Virus record (IMG/VR): IMGVR_UViG_3300004151_000025
Span: 1-32,403 of that record
Source of the DNA: a virus
DNA length: 32,403 nt
Direction: 5' to 3' (one strand)
Shown one piece after another: positions 2,437 through 30,519 of the stretch. Under the pieces are notes generated by a model, which was not told where the DNA came from, did no database searches, and worked only from the letters and a program-made list of their open reading frames with translations. The translations under genes and the position numbers were made by a program. The stretch's first letter is position 1, and every line of letters starts with the position of its first letter.

Positions 2437-2871
2437 CTATTTCACAGCTATAATAATGCCCTCTACTATACAGGTAACGGCTAGGGCTATAATGATGTTA
2501 TTCTTTATCTTGTGCCAAGACTCTGATTTTGTTAAGAACTTCTGTAAGTTCTGTAAGGTCTCCTCGGTCTGCACTTGCTGCTTCTCTTTGTTGGTTAAAT
2601 AGATCTCTCTCTCGTTTAAGGTTTGCTCTATCTGCTTCAAGTTGGACTCTTTGCTCGCGAATAAGGTTTCTCTCAAGGCTAAGTCCTGCTCGTTCTCTAA
2701 CAAGATACTCTCGCGTAAGTTTAACGATTCTACCAATCTGTTCACTATAGCCTGAGCCAGATCCACCTGAGTTACTATCTTTTCTGAAGTATCCTGTGAG
2801 ATATCCTGCGCCGAAAGTACTACAGAGAATAGCAATACTAATGGCAACAGCAATAAGAGTTTTTCGCACAT
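2437..2871 (-). CDS. Spanin-like envelope protein with signal peptide and C-terminal TM, 144 aa
   Basis: The N-terminus (MCEKLLLLLPLVLLFSVVLSA, residues 1-21) is a classic export signal with a possible signal-peptidase I site after LSA. Residues 25-115 form a long coiled coil with heptads of Leu/Glu, and residues 124-143 (IIIALAVTCIVEGIIIAVK) are a C-terminal membrane span. Signal, coiled coil and C-terminal TM is the layout of unimolecular spanins, which tie inner and outer membranes together during lysis, but here no lipobox cysteine follows the signal, so outer-membrane anchoring by lipid is not evident. The ATG overlaps the stop of the holin-like gene (TAATG) behind AGGAAGG. A second frame is read from the same site. 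Confidence 0.7.
   Translation of the reverse strand: MCEKLLLLLPLVLLFSVVLSAQDISQDTSEKIVTQVDLAQAIVNRLVESLNLRESILLENEQDLALRETLFASKESNLKQIEQTLNEREIYLTNKEKQQVQTEETLQNLQKFLTKSESWHKIKNNIIIALAVTCIVEGIIIAVK
2498..2869 (-). CDS. Overlapping i-spanin-like protein in a second frame, about 123 aa
   Basis: A second open frame runs inside the preceding gene. Its GTG start at 2869 lies two bases after the neighbour's ATG (ATGTG), so one ribosome binding site could serve both. From this start the protein has an N-terminal membrane span (residues 5-26, LIAVAISIAILCSTFGAGYL), a Gly/Ser linker (residues 32-41) and a charged coiled coil to the end: the layout of an inner-membrane Rz-type spanin. The frame stays open for 149 codons, rarely expected by chance in AT-rich DNA. 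Against it, a 21-base periodicity imposed by the first frame's heptads could create a false coiled coil. The TM and start placement make it worth annotating, with moderate confidence. Confidence 0.45.
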   Translation of the reverse strand: MRKTLIAVAISIAILCSTFGAGYLTGYFRKDSNSGGSGSGYSEQIGRIVKLTREYLVRERAGLSLERNLIREQRVQLEADRANLKRERDLFNQQREAASADRGDLTELTEVLNKIRVLAQDKE

Positions 2872-3092
2872 TATACCTTCCTCTTGAGGATTCTCCGCTT
2901 TCTAGGTTTAGGCTTATCTTCCTCAGTATCAAACTGGATAAAACCAATCTTCTCTACATCAGATTTCTTGATGAGAAATACAATGGCTCCTATGGTTGCC
3001 CATATAACGGCAACCCCTGCAGCAAGAAGTATGAGGATGTTTTTAAGCCCTATAGTGGCTATGATAGTTGCAATAGCTCCAAGTATTTCCAT
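2871..3092 (-). CDS. Holin-like membrane protein, 73 aa
   Basis: The first 43 residues hold two hydrophobic helices (about residues 2-17 and 19-42, the second including ILLAAGVAVIWATIGAIVFL) separated by a short Lys/Asn turn. A charged tail ending in KPRKRRILKRKV follows. Two spans with a strongly basic C-terminus and a length near 70 residues are typical of class II-type holins. It sits immediately before, and overlaps by TAATG, the spanin-like pair, which fits a lysis cassette in the order holin then spanins. A ribosome binding site (AAGGAGACAAAC) precedes the ATG. Other roles for a small membrane protein cannot be excluded. Confidence 0.6.
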   Translation of the reverse strand: MEILGAIATIIATIGLKNILILLAAGVAVIWATIGAIVFLIKKSDVEKIGFIQFDTEEDKPKPRKRRILKRKV

Positions 3093-4371: not shown

Positions 4372-4407
4372 AGTATACTATATGGAGTTAGTATGTCAAT
4401 GGGGCTC
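4372..4407 (-). promoter_or_regulatory. GAGCC-box promoter 1
   Basis: On the minus strand: GAGCC (4407-4403), 3 bases, TTGACA (4399-4394), 16 bases, TATACT (4377-4372). This is near-consensus for a sigma70-type promoter. It lies in the short gap upstream of the metallophosphoesterase gene (ATG at 4347). The GAGCC overlaps the TGA stop of the peptidase gene. Confidence 0.8.
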
Positions 4408-4855
4408 ATACTGGCTTATACAAACGTATAGATTCGAGGAATCCGTTCTTAACAGTAAGGCTATTGGGAATGGGGTCATATATTACCTTTTTGTTTTTAT
4501 CTATCACTACGAAGTGTCTGAACTTGTTCTTTGGATTAAAATAGCATCCAATAGCATAATACCCTTCAGGTATGATTGTGGTAGGATCATAATGCTTATT
4601 TAGGTATGTGTATGAGGCCCCCAGAACACTGCAAACTCCATTGGGATTCATAATTAAAAGCTCGTTGTAGTCATCAAAATCACCGTCATTATTCATATCC
4701 CCACTAATGTGCCCTAGTTTTATGCACTTTGCCCAAAGCATATTAATATCGTTAGTAGTGAACTCTTTGCCTACAGAATTGGCTAAGCTCATAAAATAGC
4801 ATCCATACTTCTTTATATATGGATCTAGTCCAGCAGTAGTTTGTTTTATCTTCAT
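4406..4855 (-). CDS. Papain-like cysteine peptidase, DUF261-like, 149 aa
   Basis: The ATG at 4855 has a strong ribosome binding site (AGGAG, 5 bases upstream) and overlaps the lipase stop as ATGA; the longer frame upstream has no such signal. The protein shows a C39/papain-like arrangement: Cys19 in YGCYFMSL, His114 in FRHFVVID and Asp127 in VIYDP. This resembles the DUF261 family, which I recall mainly from spirochete plasmids and phages. Residues 53-65 (DMNNDGDFDDYNE) look like a calcium-binding EF-hand/dockerin-type loop, so calcium may stabilise it. There is no signal peptide. Next to a lipase and a XhlA-like membrane protein, it may cleave peptidoglycan cross-links or envelope proteins during lysis, but the substrate is unknown. 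Confidence 0.65.
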   Translation of the reverse strand: MKIKQTTAGLDPYIKKYGCYFMSLANSVGKEFTTNDINMLWAKCIKLGHISGDMNNDGDFDDYNELLIMNPNGVCSVLGASYTYLNKHYDPTTIIPEGYYAIGCYFNPKNKFRHFVVIDKNKKVIYDPIPNSLTVKNGFLESIRLYKPV

Positions 4856-5517
4856 AGTATCTCCTTTGAAGCATCTCTTTCCATGAGATTTTGTATATAT
4901 GTCTCTGGCAGATGATTTAGCCAGAATCTCCATATGTATTTTCTAGGTAGTCTAATTCGGGGGTATCGTTTATATCCTAACAGTTCAGGAGGAACTGCAG
5001 GGACGGGGTCTTTGTCGGTTACATAGTATATAGAATGATCTATGCGCTTCTCAAATGAAGTCTCAAACGCTTTATTACCTATGTTAGGAGCACCAGCAGT
5101 ATACACCGTTATATGTGCTCCAAAGTTATACTGAACATCCACTGCAGCTAGCCTAGCCAAAGCACCTCCAAGGCTATGTCCGCAAAACACATAATCAGTA
5201 CTTCTTCTGGATAGTTGCATCACATTATGTACCTCACTTCTAAGAGCTAGGTAGGATGCGAGAAAGCCTGAATGAATTCTAATATCTGTATCTGCATTAT
5301 AGGGGGATTTATACAATGGGAATAGGAAGTTCATTACCCAGTTCCTCTTATGGATGGTTGGTTTAAATACAAACCACCTTGTGCCTCCAACCATAAATGT
5401 CTTAAACCCTACATTAAGCAATTGATCATTACACTCTAAACCATCTTGCATGAATGGCATAAATGATTTACTATACATATTCATCATAGACAGACATGGA
5501 ATGTCTTTATTTTCCAT
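4852..5517 (-). CDS. Class 3-type lipase (alpha/beta hydrolase), 221 aa
   Basis: A complete catalytic triad is visible: nucleophile Ser115 in GHSLGGALA (113-121), Asp170 in VTDKDPVPAVPP and His202 in NHLPETYI. The preceding HSGFLASYLALRSEV (82-96) and the oxyanion region also fit the fungal-type class 3 lipase family, which hydrolyses acylglycerols or phospholipids. There is no secretion signal or membrane helix, so delivery would need holin-type release. It starts within the end of the XhlA-like gene and overlaps the peptidase start as ATGA, so the three are coupled. Phage lipases are uncommon; the known analogue is mycobacteriophage LysB, which acts on mycolate esters. Here, outer-membrane lipid is the likely target, by inference. 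Confidence 0.8.
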   Translation of the reverse strand: MENKDIPCLSMMNMYSKSFMPFMQDGLECNDQLLNVGFKTFMVGGTRWFVFKPTIHKRNWVMNFLFPLYKSPYNADTDIRIHSGFLASYLALRSEVHNVMQLSRRSTDYVFCGHSLGGALARLAAVDVQYNFGAHITVYTAGAPNIGNKAFETSFEKRIDHSIYYVTDKDPVPAVPPELLGYKRYPRIRLPRKYIWRFWLNHLPETYIQNLMERDASKEIL

Positions 5518-9381: not shown

Positions 9382-9583
9382 ATCCAAAGTAGAGGTTACA
9401 TGCCTTTAATACGTTTTCATCAGCAATAGAACCAATATCTGTAGTTGAGTCTATGGTGTATCGATAATATGATGTAGCTATAATAGTTTCATTTTCAATA
9501 ACCCTTGTTACTTCACGAACTTGAATAACGTTAATCTCTGGTAAGTATTCGATTCTGTCTACAGTCGTTGTTTTAGTTAGCAT
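9380..9583 (-). CDS. Small tail-region protein, 67 aa
   Basis: The start MLTKTTTVDR at 9583 follows GAGGG five bases upstream. The sequence pattern VDRIEYLPEINVIQVREVTRVIENETIIATSYYRYTI is familiar from 60-70 residue proteins encoded beside tail fiber genes in many phages (a short beta-rich domain with R-x-x-x-V-I-E...YR/HR). The role of that family is not established to my knowledge. It lies between the HNH gene and the tail tip gene, overlapping the HNH stop by 11 bases, and its TGA stop is part of the next promoter's GAGCC box. Confidence 0.6.
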   Translation of the reverse strand: MLTKTTTVDRIEYLPEINVIQVREVTRVIENETIIATSYYRYTIDSTTDIGSIADENVLKACNLYFG

Positions 9584-10067
9584 GGTTTCCCTCATATATC
9601 TCACTATATCCGTATTTTGCCTCGGCTTCTCTTCTAGCAGAAATAGCATCTTCTTTGTTGTGATAATATCCCAGATCAAGTGTTTTTTTATTAACTACTA
9701 TACGTGCTCTCCATTTATTGCGAGACTCACACCACTGTACCCCTATAACACCAGATGTGTTATTTTTTTGCATAGAACGGTTTATCATGTTTATAGTGTG
9801 TGTACATATTCGTAAATTTGCTTTTCTACAATCAAGAGTATCTCTGTTTATGAGATCAATGCACATCCCAGAAGGACATTTAAGTAAATCTCTATGTAGA
9901 TATTCTCTAATAACAGTTCCGTTTACTGTTTTAATATATCTATGAAAATAAACCCTTCCTTGTGGATTGTTTGTTGCTGATCTTACTGCAACCCATTTAT
10001 GGTCACTTATAAATTCAGCGTCATCAGGGTCTATTTTCACATTATAACCAGCAATAGTGGTTTCCAT
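9573..10067 (-). CDS. HNH/AP2 homing endonuclease, probably degenerate, 164 aa
   Basis: The N-terminal part is an HNH-type endonuclease core (HRYIKTVNG, LHRDLLKCPSGMCIDLINRDTLDCRKANLRIC, residues about 42-88 in two blocks), and residues 102-151 are an AP2 DNA-binding domain (TSGVIGVQWCESRNKWRARI). In active relatives the motif reads D-H, with His as the general base, as in the other HNH protein of this window (VIDHINNNTLDNRK). Here it is D71-L72, so cleavage activity is doubtful although Asn84 remains. Such genes are selfish elements inserted between phage genes; this one separates the fiber gene from the small tail gene. The ribosome binding site GGAG precedes the ATG. Confidence 0.8.
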   Translation of the reverse strand: METTIAGYNVKIDPDDAEFISDHKWVAVRSATNNPQGRVYFHRYIKTVNGTVIREYLHRDLLKCPSGMCIDLINRDTLDCRKANLRICTHTINMINRSMQKNNTSGVIGVQWCESRNKWRARIVVNKKTLDLGYYHNKEDAISARREAEAKYGYSEIYEGNHAN

Positions 10068-22478: not shown

Positions 22479-22638
22479 ATCCCCTAGGATACTCTTCGGG
22501 CTTCTCTACTCTTAATTTTTCAACTATTTGCATCTCAATAAATGAACCTTTCTCGGCCCAACTTATTTTGGCTTCTCCATAGCTGATTTCATTCATAGCC
22601 CTTTCTAGCTTCACTAGGAGTTCTTCCGGTAATATCAT
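22477..22638 (-). CDS. DUF2292/YezD-like small protein, 53 aa
   Basis: The sequence runs LLVKLERAMNEISYGEAKI (residues 7-25), then SWAEKGSFIEMQIVEKLRVEK, which fits the short DUF2292/YezD pattern: a helix, I-x-(Y/F)-G-x, a strand, a turn, and a strand ending in x-x-E-K-x-R. That domain is found in small bacterial proteins of unclear function. The ATG at 22638 overlaps the MuF-like stop as ATGA with AGGAG six to seven bases upstream. The stop falls in promoter 4's GAGCC box. Confidence 0.6.
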   Translation of the reverse strand: MILPEELLVKLERAMNEISYGEAKISWAEKGSFIEMQIVEKLRVEKPEEYPRG

Positions 22639-23606
22639 ATTTTATCTCCTAAAGTTCTATCAACACCTGCAGCGTAAGAATTCCAACTTGGTGAGGCTGT
22701 ACATCTATCCATAATAGCCATACCAGCTTGAAGAAACTCCATCTTTCCTGTCTTTTTCTTCCAAGTGACCCCAAGATCATCAGAGTAGACTTCTGAATTC
22801 CTCCAAGTGCAAAGTAATCCTTCCATAATATAATGACTAGGAATGGCCTTCCTATACTTACCATTAGGGTTACCTCGGACTTTCTCATCCCTTGCCGTGT
22901 GCCAGAAATAAGTCTCCATGCCGATGTACATAGACTGTTCTCTGGTAATAATGCTATTGAGCTTGCCCACTTGGTCTCTGGCAATAACATAAGATCTATG
23001 CCCAGTCAAAGAAGCATCTATCTTGCTGACAGCTTCTATAATCTGTTCCTTTCCCCAACCGTTCTGCAATCCGTCTATGACAGTATTGTTAATCTTAGTA
23101 ATATATTCTTCACCAAGGTTCTTAATGAGCTTGTAGTTTTGCTTCTCCCATAGAGCCCTAGCTTCAGGCCACCATGGTTTCTCGATAGCTATAGGAATTC
23201 CCCCAGATAGTACAGTGATCTGCTTCTGGAAGTATGCTGAATTAGCTCCAAGTATCTTCTCAGCTATATCAGCAAGCATTCTACCCAGTTGACCAGATGA
23301 GATAGCATTGACGCCATAAACAAGCTCAATTTCTCGCATCATTTCTTCCATGAGGATATCAAGATCATCCTCTACAGAATCTTTACGGATAAAATAGGCA
23401 TCAATGTAGCTGTCTACAAAAGGCACACACAATCCAACAAATGTAGACGTTATGTTCTTTATCTGTTTGTAGTATTGTCTCTCTATACCGATAGGATAAG
23501 TAATAGGCTTCAAAGGGCGATTTCTAGTTCGCTTCCTTTGAGTCTTGGTCATTGCAGATCGAGCAAATTTAAGTTGTGTCTGAAAGCTATTCTGTGCTGG
23601 CGTCAT
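22635..23606 (-). CDS. MuF-like minor head protein, 323 aa
   Basis: Follows the portal gene directly (20-base overlap), as do Mu gpF/SPP1 gp7 minor head proteins. The C-terminal half carries the MuF-domain pattern: RSYVIARDQVGKLNSIITREQS (residues about 205-226 in order), then YFWHTARDEKVRGNPNGKY and a closing FLQAGMAI region. The first 60 residues are basic. Such proteins sit inside or at the portal vertex of the prohead, and may be ejected with DNA. There is no additional toxin-like domain after the MuF region (323 residues is a normal length). Confidence 0.8.
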   Translation of the reverse strand: MTPAQNSFQTQLKFARSAMTKTQRKRTRNRPLKPITYPIGIERQYYKQIKNITSTFVGLCVPFVDSYIDAYFIRKDSVEDDLDILMEEMMREIELVYGVNAISSGQLGRMLADIAEKILGANSAYFQKQITVLSGGIPIAIEKPWWPEARALWEKQNYKLIKNLGEEYITKINNTVIDGLQNGWGKEQIIEAVSKIDASLTGHRSYVIARDQVGKLNSIITREQSMYIGMETYFWHTARDEKVRGNPNGKYRKAIPSHYIMEGLLCTWRNSEVYSDDLGVTWKKKTGKMEFLQAGMAIMDRCTASPSWNSYAAGVDRTLGDKI

Positions 23607-25125: not shown

Positions 25126-26478
25126 TTACTGGTACAGAGCCTTCCAAGACCCTAAATTAGTGAATTTACCTTCACGTAACATTGATGCACATGCATCAGC
25201 AGCATCATCATGGAGTTTTGTGGTAGAAGTCCAGTCAAGTATCTGATTCAAAAACTCCGGTTCTGTCTCCTTAGCCCATTCTATATGATTCCATCTATCA
25301 TATAAATAAGTTTCTATTTTTTTCTGTTTCTGCATAGACTCCCGGTAACTATGCCCCCATATTCCGTAGCTTTTAGCTCTAGGATCAGCAAGAAGCGAAT
25401 CCAACGTATACCCATGGTCAGCATTATCCTCCATATACACTTCTCTACAGTTATATTGAGCTAACTTAGTAAAAATATCTGATAGGAGATCCTTAATATG
25501 GCCTTTATATAGATAACCAACCATATTTATTTTACCATTAGGAAGATCACCTGCTATACAGAGTGCGGTATAATCTTCGCCGCCATATGATGCATCTACT
25601 AATGCCTTTATGTGTTTAACATGAGGGGCGTCCCATGAACCCATGTGTGGATCATGAAAAATCATATCCGCAGTGGATGTAAATGTAAGAAGATAGTTAC
25701 AATCAAATAATGCACCAGTCTGGGTACGCCGTGCCTCTTCTACTTGCGCGTCTGTTAAAAGACCTGTTGAGGTGTATGGGTAACGCCTAAATGGGATACC
25801 TGCATTTTCCAATACTGCAAGAGCATCCTCTCTATGCCAACTAGAACCGATTATTGATGCGGGGCACCCTCTGTTCAATATATTTGACAGTAGTTCATTT
25901 ATCATCATTATAGAGAATGCTCGTTCGCGGTCGAACACACGATCGAGGTATGACGTTCCATCATCAATTAATAATCTGTCAGTATGAAATCCCGTAAAAT
26001 TACCATTTAGTCCTAGTCCTGTCAGAGACGCTTCTTTGGTATGTTTAGTACGAATAGATAAATTTAACTTTCCTTCTTTCCTCATATCGAATAGTGGCTC
26101 TTTTAAGGCACTATCAGGAATATTGTTATTTGCATCTGCATACCAACAATGCATCAGTAAGTAATATATAGGTGGGGATTCTGCTATATTCATAATTTCA
26201 CGCACCATTTCGGCGCTTAGGCTGTATGACTTTCTGACTATGGCGATAGTCTGTTCTGGATCTTGCATCCAACAATAAATCACGCCAAGTTCTGTTATAC
26301 TGGTACTTTTATAGCTACCACGATGCCCAAGCAAACCATGTTTCTCTTTATGGTCTAGACACCAATGCATCCAATCACTGTGCAAGGGGGTCAATAGGGT
26401 CTTGCCACACAAATGACCTATCAGGTGAGGGTATTGTTTTATCTTTTCTATGTCTTCCCAACTGTAGGGGCTGTGCAT
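25126..26478 (-). CDS. terL: Terminase large subunit, 450 aa
   Basis: The ATPase part has a Walker A variant GHRGSYKST (51-59, Lys57), a Walker B LLIDD (Asp172-Asp173) and a motif-III-like IIGSSWH near residue 212. The C-terminal nuclease shows the three acidic clusters of RNase H-type terminases: ALVDASYGGEDYTA (Asp295), VYMEDNADHG (Glu350/Asp351) and KLHDDAADA (Asp424/425, Asp428). The protein pumps DNA into the prohead and cuts it. Length is normal. The ATG overlaps the stop of the HNH endonuclease as TAATG, so translation is coupled to that gene. No obvious small-subunit gene is adjacent. Confidence 0.92.
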   Translation of the reverse strand: MHSPYSWEDIEKIKQYPHLIGHLCGKTLLTPLHSDWMHWCLDHKEKHGLLGHRGSYKSTSITELGVIYCWMQDPEQTIAIVRKSYSLSAEMVREIMNIAESPPIYYLLMHCWYADANNNIPDSALKEPLFDMRKEGKLNLSIRTKHTKEASLTGLGLNGNFTGFHTDRLLIDDGTSYLDRVFDRERAFSIMMINELLSNILNRGCPASIIGSSWHREDALAVLENAGIPFRRYPYTSTGLLTDAQVEEARRTQTGALFDCNYLLTFTSTADMIFHDPHMGSWDAPHVKHIKALVDASYGGEDYTALCIAGDLPNGKINMVGYLYKGHIKDLLSDIFTKLAQYNCREVYMEDNADHGYTLDSLLADPRAKSYGIWGHSYRESMQKQKKIETYLYDRWNHIEWAKETEPEFLNQILDWTSTTKLHDDAADACASMLREGKFTNLGSWKALYQ

Positions 26479-27209
26479 TATATAACACCTTCCTGTTTTA
26501 GTTTTTCAATGTATGCACATCGAACTTTATGACCATCTTCTGGATTGATAAATGTCCCCAACCACTTGGTTCTACCCTTTAATATGTATCTAGCTTTCCA
26601 TTTCCCTGAAGCACTGTCCCAAGTAACCCCCTCATATCCTGAGGAATTTGTTCTCATAACTGGGGCAGTAGCTTCCATATATATTGTCTTAGCACGAGCT
26701 TCATCATATACCCTATCAGGGAAATTAACTAAAGCAAATTCACCAAACAAAAACCTAGCTACATCATCGTAGGCCGTAGCAGCATCTGTTAAATCTATGA
26801 AACTCCCAAGAGCATAGTTTTTCTGTTCGTACTTTATTGTTGCTTTATATCGTCCAGTGCACTTATCCAGTTTAGCACCCTTATAACCAGAGGTGTTTCT
26901 GGTTTCTCTTCGTTTATTACGTGCATTCTCTTTCTGCGTACAAAATCGCATGTTACACTTTCTATTGTCAAGTGTGTTATTATTTATATGATCTATCACA
27001 GTTCCATCTATATAACTACATCCCATGATAAATCTATGAAGTTTTATTGTTTCATATTTACGAAGCCCATGTTTTATCTTAGTTCTAAAATAATATCGGT
27101 TATGTCTCCTCAATAAGGAGTTGTCTACCCACCAGTTATACTGCTGTATTTTCTCTACATCCTCATCGTCAACTAAAACAGTGTATCCACTTATGTTTAT
27201 CTCAGCCAT
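26478..27209 (-). CDS. HNH homing endonuclease with two AP2 domains, 243 aa
   Basis: An intact HNH core is present: KLHRFIMG and VIDHINNNTLDNRKCNMRFC (residues 57-90 in two blocks; Asp73, His74, Asn86). Two AP2-type DNA-binding domains follow, at about residues 105-165 (NTSGYKGAKLDKCTGRYKA) and 187-238 (NSSGYEGVTWDSASGKWKA). HNH/AP2 proteins are mobile homing endonucleases common in phages. This one is placed just before terminase and coupled to it by TAATG; HNH proteins next to terminase sometimes aid DNA packaging, but the AP2 domains favour homing. The start overlaps the SH3-like gene by 8 bases. Confidence 0.87.
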   Translation of the reverse strand: MAEINISGYTVLVDDEDVEKIQQYNWWVDNSLLRRHNRYYFRTKIKHGLRKYETIKLHRFIMGCSYIDGTVIDHINNNTLDNRKCNMRFCTQKENARNKRRETRNTSGYKGAKLDKCTGRYKATIKYEQKNYALGSFIDLTDAATAYDDVARFLFGEFALVNFPDRVYDEARAKTIYMEATAPVMRTNSSGYEGVTWDSASGKWKARYILKGRTKWLGTFINPEDGHKVRCAYIEKLKQEGVI

Positions 27210-29427: not shown

Positions 29428-29456
29428 ATTTTACCACGTTTCCTTGTAATTGTCAA
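29428..29456 (-). promoter_or_regulatory. Sigma70-like promoter without GAGCC box
   Basis: On the minus strand: TTGACA (29456-29451), 17 bases, TAAAAT (29433-29428), overlapping the end of the transglycosylase gene and upstream of the gene starting at 29403. The sequence before the -35 is a CT-rich run, not GAGCC, so this looks like a constitutive or early promoter. Confidence 0.7.
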
Positions 29457-29958
29457 GAAGAAAAAGCACTTGTTCAGCATAATCTTTACATTCTTTCGGG
29501 ATGTCATCAAGACTTTTTAGCTGCCTTACATTCTCAAACCCAAATGTGTAACTCAGCACACCTAGATAGACGGATCCATGCCAATATTCAATCAGCCATG
29601 CAAGATAATTGCAGCCCACTTCGGCAGAGTGGCTAGGGTTATCCCACTGGTAATCATTCTGAGGGATATTGGAGAACCTTGATACGAGCCCTAAACCCCT
29701 AGGACTATCATAAAGATACTTCCTGTACTCCTGAAAGAGCCCATCTGATCTATATCCACCAACCACCCTAGAACGCGCCTTTGGATTGAACCTAGACTCA
29801 GAATAGGCCACACAATGGGCCAACCCCCTAGGAAGCTCTGCATGAGCCTCGTAATAGGATATGATTGACTTAATATACTTAGGTTCTTTCCAATCTTTTG
29901 GCTTCTGTGCGTATGCAACAGAACATAAAGCCAATATACACAATAGTACTTTTCTCAC
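29431..29958 (-). CDS. Secreted lytic transglycosylase (endolysin-like), 175 aa
   Basis: The N-terminus MRKVLLCILALCSVAYAQKP is a signal peptide with a cleavage site after AYA. The mature part has the lysozyme-like SLT pattern: LAHCVAYSESRFNPKARS (catalytic Glu54), GLFQ at about residues 73-76, and a later region with EVGCNYLAWLIEYW...GVLSYTFG equivalent to the usual N-x-x-x-G-x-x-YL...AYN-G motif. It should cleave the peptidoglycan glycan strand in the periplasm and is the best candidate endolysin, exported by the host Sec system. The start is GTG at 29958, because ATG two bases earlier is followed by TGA. AGGAG is upstream. Confidence 0.8.
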   Translation of the reverse strand: MRKVLLCILALCSVAYAQKPKDWKEPKYIKSIISYYEAHAELPRGLAHCVAYSESRFNPKARSRVVGGYRSDGLFQEYRKYLYDSPRGLGLVSRFSNIPQNDYQWDNPSHSAEVGCNYLAWLIEYWHGSVYLGVLSYTFGFENVRQLKSLDDIPKECKDYAEQVLFLLDNYKETW

Positions 29959-29966
29959 ATTTACTC

Positions 29967-30074
29967 CTAAAAGAATTTGTCTTTATTAAGGCCAATAATT
30001 ACAATACCAGCCAATACAATAATCACACCTGCTGTCTTGGTAATAGTGTCAAATATCGTGTACATATTATTCAT
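29967..30074 (-). CDS. Single-span membrane micro-protein, 35 aa
   Basis: A 35-residue frame (MNNMYTIFDTITKTAGVIIV start) with one hydrophobic helix at residues 14-29 (TAGVIIVLAGIVIIGL) and a charged end KDKFF. It overlaps the upstream lipoprotein gene by 8 bases (ATGAATAA) and ends inside the ribosome binding site of the transglycosylase gene. The ribosome binding site is weak, so coupling to the upstream gene is likely. A small holin or holin accessory just before an endolysin is an attractive idea but unproven. Confidence 0.5.
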   Translation of the reverse strand: MNNMYTIFDTITKTAGVIIVLAGIVIIGLNKDKFF

Positions 30075-30519
30075 TTGCTGCTCTTGAATTATACTTTATA
30101 TAACAGGAACGAAGAGCTTCGTCCAAAGTTAGTCTAGCTATCTGTTCATACCTACCGTAATAGGGATATACAGTCATGGTTTCTCCCTCATAAGGAACAC
30201 CATTAAGGGTAACTATCATATGATTTCCCCGAGGGGTTTCTATAGCAACCAGATAGACCTCGTAGCCAAGTTTCCTAGCAAAATACCCAACAAGGATACA
30301 GAAATCCTCACAATCCCCTGTGCCCTTTTCTATAGTCTCTTGTGGAGCTTGCCAATGGTCGGTGAACTCTGCTTTGTAGTAAAGTTCTGTAGTTACATAT
30401 TCCTGAAGGTCTTCCATAGAAGTAAAAGACATAGATGGAGTCCTAATAAGCGTCATAGGATCCGCGAAAAAGGCACACCCCGACAAAAGAACACTGAGCA
30501 CAATAACAATGTATCTCAT
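30067..30519 (-). CDS. Lipoprotein with transglutaminase-like cysteine peptidase domain, 150 aa
   Basis: The N-terminus MRYIVIVLSVLLSGCAFF carries a lipobox (LSGC, Cys15), so the mature protein is lipid-anchored in the envelope. Residues about 45-125 resemble a transglutaminase-like/bacterial cysteine peptidase core: GTGDCEDFC (Cys70), a helix, EVYLVAIETPRGNHMIV (His100) and a following YP-x-Y segment; the third acidic residue is not certain. It is coupled to a 32-residue membrane peptide upstream (ATGA) and to another downstream. Candidates for its role are envelope or peptidoglycan processing, or a lipoprotein expressed to block superinfection. Both are inference. Confidence 0.7.
   Translation of the reverse strand: MRYIVIVLSVLLSGCAFFADPMTLIRTPSMSFTSMEDLQEYVTTELYYKAEFTDHWQAPQETIEKGTGDCEDFCILVGYFARKLGYEVYLVAIETPRGNHMIVTLNGVPYEGETMTVYPYYGRYEQIARLTLDEALRSCYIKYNSRAANE

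Follow-up and report, generated by a model that had tools for sequence, protein, structure and literature searches.

Dual initiation at the sequence AUGUG has been demonstrated in E. coli, both in vitro and in vivo (PMC9841429). At an aligned SD spacing of 12/14 both codons are used, with AUG favoured about 2-3.5-fold in vitro and about 10-fold in vivo, and the use of GUG drops sharply past 12/14 (PMC9841429). In the case of E. coli tamA, two SD motifs jointly give both starts (PMC9841429). The second products made at AUGUG in E. coli are only 10-15 aa long, and their function is not known (PMC9841429). S. aureus can pick GUG precisely at AUGUG (PMC13009471).

Here, we describe a locus in the 32.4 kb virus record IMGVR_UViG_3300004151_000025 at which about 370 bases are apparently read in two frames at once. 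The window, that is, the whole stretch of DNA that was analysed (32,403 nucleotides), carries the following features around this locus.

2437-2871, (-) strand: gene A, starting at ATG 2871, 144 aa, ending 9 nt ahead of the ATG of the next gene
2501-2869, (-) strand: gene B, starting at GTG 2869, 123 codons and then TAA
2867-2871, (-) strand: overlapping starts ATGTG, with ATG 2871 for A and GTG 2869 for B (sequence AAGAGGAAGGTATAATGTGCG)
2875-2883, (-) strand: ribosome binding site (RBS) GAGGAAGGT, duplex energy to the anti-SD -8.8
2437-2500, (-) strand: A-only tail past the last sense codon of B, encoding the C-terminal TM with normal codon usage and serving as an internal control
2871-3092, (-) strand: gene of a 73-aa holin-like protein with a hydrophobic N-terminal half and a basic C-terminus, its stop overlapping the start of A
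1891-2427, (-) strand: gene of 178 aa (phrog_5335, function not known), downstream of A
1002-1607, (+) strand: gene of an SMC-like ATPase (phrog_15167), convergent

Organization of the Overlapping Frames and Their Start Site

B is wholly nested within A, in the +2 frame, and ATG 2871 shares bases with the stop codon TAA that ends the 73-aa gene upstream (TAATG). The initial annotation had described an ATG and a GTG start two bases apart behind a single RBS, a second frame open for 123 codons, and two membrane/coiled-coil proteins of different design; all of this was confirmed. A has a signal-peptide-like N-terminus (MCEKLLLLLPLVLLFSVVLSA/QD), a coiled coil at about residues 25-112 that is free of Gly and Pro, and a C-terminal TM at about residues 124-143. 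B begins with an N-terminal TM (VRKTLIAVAISIAILCSTFGAGYLTGYF), followed by a Gly/Ser linker and a coiled coil at about residues 40-120. The 17-residue Kyte-Doolittle maxima are 2.84 and 2.33 for the N-terminal helices of A and B, respectively, and 2.76 for the C-terminal TM of A. AlphaFold2, run on the single sequences, gave two long helices in each protein with a mean pLDDT of 84.8 (A) and 82.7 (B), values that, for models made without an alignment, are weak support where coiled coils are concerned. Foldseek searches with the two models returned nothing below E 1.

In the RBS, the motif AGGU sets ATG/GTG at a DtoStart of 12/14 and AGGA at 13/15, each motif being only 4 nt long; in the other genes of the phage, the mode of the aligned SD spacing is 13-14. 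The locus therefore shows what defines an ambiguous AUGUG site, namely starts offset by two and an aligned SD spacing of about 12/14, on a spacing scale that comes from E. coli (PMC9841429) and on which 12/14 and 13/15 fall on the ambiguous window or just past it. The two interleaved SD registers would place either the AUG of A or the GUG of B in the P-site, and a single RBS would give rise to both proteins in a ratio set by competition between the start codons. A fixed 1:1 ratio of the partners, as had been suggested, is not supported and is unlikely by analogy, AUG being favoured 2-10-fold at 12/14 in E. coli (PMC9841429), the species from which the AUGUG rules are derived. TTG 2947 was also considered as the start of B and was rejected for its weaker SD (-2.9 vs -8.8).

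A related start was observed elsewhere in the window. The SLT endolysin gene (29431-29958, (-) strand) starts at ATGTGA (29958-29960), where the ATG is directly followed by TGA and the gene is read from the GTG; this resembles the A4 start-stop context treated in PMC9841429.

Coding Constraint in Both Frames

The codon usage of the 28 other genes of the same phage was used for the null models. Under these, the exact probability that B is open given protein A is 3.5e-8, and that A is open given protein B is 6.1e-6. The values rise to 0.012 (B open) and 0.069 (A open) with codon usage taken from the overlap itself, a null that is circular and over-conservative, since these frequencies already carry any constraint. 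Within the overlap, third-position T in A is found 12 times vs 38.6 expected (z -6.0), and the bias is normal again in the 20 codons of A past the B stop (6 vs 7.6 expected). Third-position G in B is depleted as well (7 vs 21.8 expected, z -3.9). Among 523 comparison windows of 122 codons taken from the other genes, the lowest z values were -4.1 (T) and -3.3 (G), and the fewest stops were three in the +2 frame and one in the +1 frame, against zero in both frames of the A/B overlap; its remaining third frame has 17 stops. None of these equal-length windows from the 28 genes resembles the A/B overlap.

Two single-gene explanations have to be weighed against these numbers. That A is the only gene and B a chance open frame would agree with the ATG of A, its TAATG overlap with the upstream gene, its end near the next gene, and its C-terminal TM, which is not shared with B and has a normal codon usage. 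We regard this as quite improbable, given how rarely B would be open by chance and that third-position T is depleted in A solely where B overlaps. The codon score of B (0.15) is also typical for genes of the phage, against -0.42 to -1.02 for the +2 frames of other genes. However, protein A alone already confers a mean score of 0.06 on frame B, and since each frame owes part of its score to its partner, the raw codon score was discounted as proof and the exact open-frame and third-position tests were used instead. The converse, with B as the only gene and A open by chance, would fit the low codon score of A and, in B, a synonymous codon usage and a third-position T that are both normal. It too appears improbable: A would rarely be open (P 6e-6), B is depleted in third-position G, the coil of A is more polar than in all 5000 resamplings, and A runs about 21 codons further than B, encoding a TM there and reaching the SD of the following gene.

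The proteins themselves carry further signals. The N-terminal hydrophobicity is beyond that forced by the partner frame (P 0.003 and 0.004 by resampling of each frame given the other). Heptad periodicity is significant in both A and B (P about 0.002 each vs shuffles) and exceeds what the partner frame imposes (0/3000 and 0.001). The length of the open pair was rejected as sole evidence, because GC-rich DNA yields long open ATGTG pairs by chance. A 113-aa open frame at 22649-22990 ((-) strand), within the gene at 22635-23606 and in its +1 frame, which is open for 118 codons, is most likely open by chance and cautions against reliance on length alone.

An assembly indel or a programmed frameshift could also fuse pieces of both frames into one protein. 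The A/B region is present in one record only, since a second IMG/VR record of the same phage (L003, 1-8786), with head proteins 100% identical to those of the window, stops short of it. Yet stops are avoided in both frames in every third of the overlap and the third-position depletions run throughout, and a frameshift artefact is disfavoured because, in a single gene that had been broken, only one frame would look coding at any point; we consider such a fusion highly improbable.

Dual coding of A and B is therefore likely. Codon constraint, avoidance of stops, hydrophobicity, the heptad pattern, and the geometry of the SD together give good support to the earlier proposal that two proteins arise from co-located starts, and for translation of both frames, which is predicted, the codon constraint is indirect support. 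Given dual coding, shared initiation at the AUGUG is the simplest route to the two products.

Searches for Homologues

No homologue of A or B was found in IMG/VR peptide scans or in 43 related phage records, in which a single weak match to A (E 0.005) lay within a 429-codon frame. Three further genomes, queried with A alone, gave no homologue and one weak match (E 0.0097). A, B, and the neighbouring exonuclease were absent from 393 Spirochaetota genomes, and tblastn with E up to 1 retrieved no homologue from phages (A and B) or plasmids (A alone queried). No support for spanin homology of either protein came from PHROG, Pfam, NCBIfam, or BFVD. A weak, sub-threshold match of A to FlbB, a flagellar collar protein (E 1.9e-4 with a bit score far under the cut-off), is probably due to coiled-coil bias.

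Neighbouring genes were used as anchors as well. The exonuclease led to one distant locus (L002) and the 178-aa gene to none. In the terminase alignment, the relatives are at most 36% identical, apart from the identical fragment L003, and the ATPase alignment gave no additional informative cassette.

The best genome match by terminase is a Spirochaetia bacterium (33%). A class 3 lipase and a DUF261 protein are encoded among the late genes (4406-5517, (-) strand), between a tail-fibre-like gene and the exonuclease. The DUF261 family is known from Borrelia. The terminase match and DUF261 are weak hints of a diderm host, perhaps a spirochaete, against which stands the negative result in the 393 Spirochaetota genomes. 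Also beside late genes are two similar proteins (9573-10067 and 26478-27209, (-) strand; 33% over 159 aa, a similarity that emerged through L003), whose pattern suggests HNH/AP2-type homing genes.

Position in the Probable Lysis Region

The nearest relative found is IMGVR_UViG_3300037504_001227, with terminase, portal, and capsid 36%, 41%, and 38% identical, respectively. The convergent ATPase bordering the late genes is 36% identical between the two phages, and the small coiled-coil gene preceding it is also similar. Facing the ATPase, the relative carries genes for a 77-aa holin-like protein, an 89-aa protein with an N-terminal TM, and a 92-aa lipoprotein. The 89-aa i-spanin-like gene begins with TAATG, as A does, and is overlapped by 77 nt by the o-spanin-like lipoprotein gene. 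This slot is a conventional overlapped spanin arrangement, the pair being identified as spanin-like by its anatomy; no spanin family was matched when its proteins were searched against family collections.

The A/B pair occupies the same slot, directly downstream of the 73-aa holin-like gene, a lysis-cassette location as expected of spanins. The 73-aa protein probably has two TMs; it has no family match, and its holin-like label comes from hydrophobicity only. The SD of the 178-aa gene (AGGAGG) overlaps the stop of A, and as this gene comes after A/B, the pair is not the last of the late genes. A and B have no sequence similarity to the spanin-like proteins of the relative, and the correspondence is by position only.

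By predicted topology, B has the features of an i-spanin, that is, an N-terminal TM and a periplasmic domain, often a coiled coil. An o-spanin lipobox was found in neither A nor B by a scan of the window; applied to the relative, the scan recovered its o-spanin-like gene. The sequence AILC in B (Cys 16) was considered as a lipobox candidate and rejected; it was not picked up by the scan and has Leu directly before the Cys. To our knowledge, Leu in this position fits no usual lipobox. The only lipobox protein of the window is a 150-aa transglutaminase-like protein (30067-30519, (-) strand; Pfam just below the cut-off) with a weak match to LapG. A has the C-terminal TM of a unimolecular spanin and lacks the N-terminal lipobox that goes with it. 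With no lipobox in either protein, nothing evident would anchor an A/B complex in the outer membrane. The spanin reading put forward initially thus stands as regards position, in the slot of the relative's spanin-like pair, and falls short in the lipobox, which is missing from both frames. We term A/B spanin-like, by position and anatomy, and do not file the pair as a spanin, because of the missing lipobox and the lack of resemblance to the proteins of the relative; by the definition applied here it is not a member.

Both genes could be real and yet not form a lysis pair, acting for example as a holin and a regulator, as a superinfection-exclusion pair, or as other envelope proteins. The missing lipobox, the lack of spanin homology, the function-unassigned gene that follows, and the weak FlbB match of A are compatible with such roles, but A/B comes directly after a holin-like gene and in the slot equivalent to that of the relative's spanin-like pair, and we consider these roles rather unlikely. 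Given dual coding, a lysis role is fairly probable in view of this position. We favour, with moderate confidence, the reading that A and B are both real genes of the lysis region, which overlap almost completely, are co-initiated, and form a spanin-like complex in late lysis. Both products are predicted to be membrane-targeted and helical, B being anchored N-terminally like an i-spanin and A having a signal-like N-terminus, a coiled coil, and a C-terminal TM. From its position, the pair would most likely assemble into a coiled-coil complex that acts in the last lysis step, the disruption of the envelope or outer membrane, and stands in for a conventional spanin pair.

If confirmed, a natural full-length AUGUG pair would mean that evolution uses ambiguous initiation as a bicistronic device, and, with a lipid-anchor-free A/B complex, the gene architecture and the type of spanin-like complex would both be new. 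Other such pairs would escape gene callers that do not allow near-total overlap. A/B also offers a compact test case of two proteins that share almost all of their codons.

Comparison with Known Systems

Among spanins, lambda Rz/Rz1 and further two-component pairs with embedded or overlapped genes are, like A/B, membrane/coiled-coil pairs in overlapping frames beside lysis genes, and B resembles the i-spanin of two-component systems (PMC6139136). In Rz/Rz1, however, the second start lies inside the first gene (PMC6139136), whereas the starts of A and B coincide, A/B has no lipoprotein partner, and A has a C-terminal TM. The unimolecular spanin T1 gp11 shares with A an N-terminal export signal and a C-terminal TM, but its periplasmic domain is mainly beta, while A is predicted to be helical and has no lipobox (PMC6139136). 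Lambda S105/S107, as cited in PMC9841429, is also a lysis gene with adjacent starts and two SD motifs; unlike A and B, its products are in-frame and are one protein in two versions.

Outside lysis, E. coli pqiA and tamA, of the AUGUG/GUGUG ambiguous start sites, are close to A/B in start geometry, with the two-base AUGUG offset, an SD at 12/14 or two motifs, and initiation in both frames (PMC9841429). Their second frames are 15 aa and 10 aa long, respectively, while A and B are both full-length and under mutual coding constraint. Thermus rnpA-rpmH, as cited in PMC9841429, makes two complete proteins behind one SD, their starts separated by a few bases, but it is bacterial, encodes unrelated proteins, and uses two AUGs in AUGGAUG rather than AUGUG. 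In a limited open-access literature, we found no earlier case of two full-length proteins under mutual constraint that share an AUGUG start. Co-initiated overlapping genes within a lysis cassette are likely new. That a single AUGUG serves two full-length partners whose lipid-anchor-free, envelope-disrupting complex replaces the spanin pair of related phages is possible, although doubtful. Simultaneous starts, which with near-total overlap had been suggested to be a new arrangement, have precedents in E. coli AUGUG sites and Thermus rnpA/rpmH; what appears to be new in A/B is the full-length, mutually constrained AUGUG pair.
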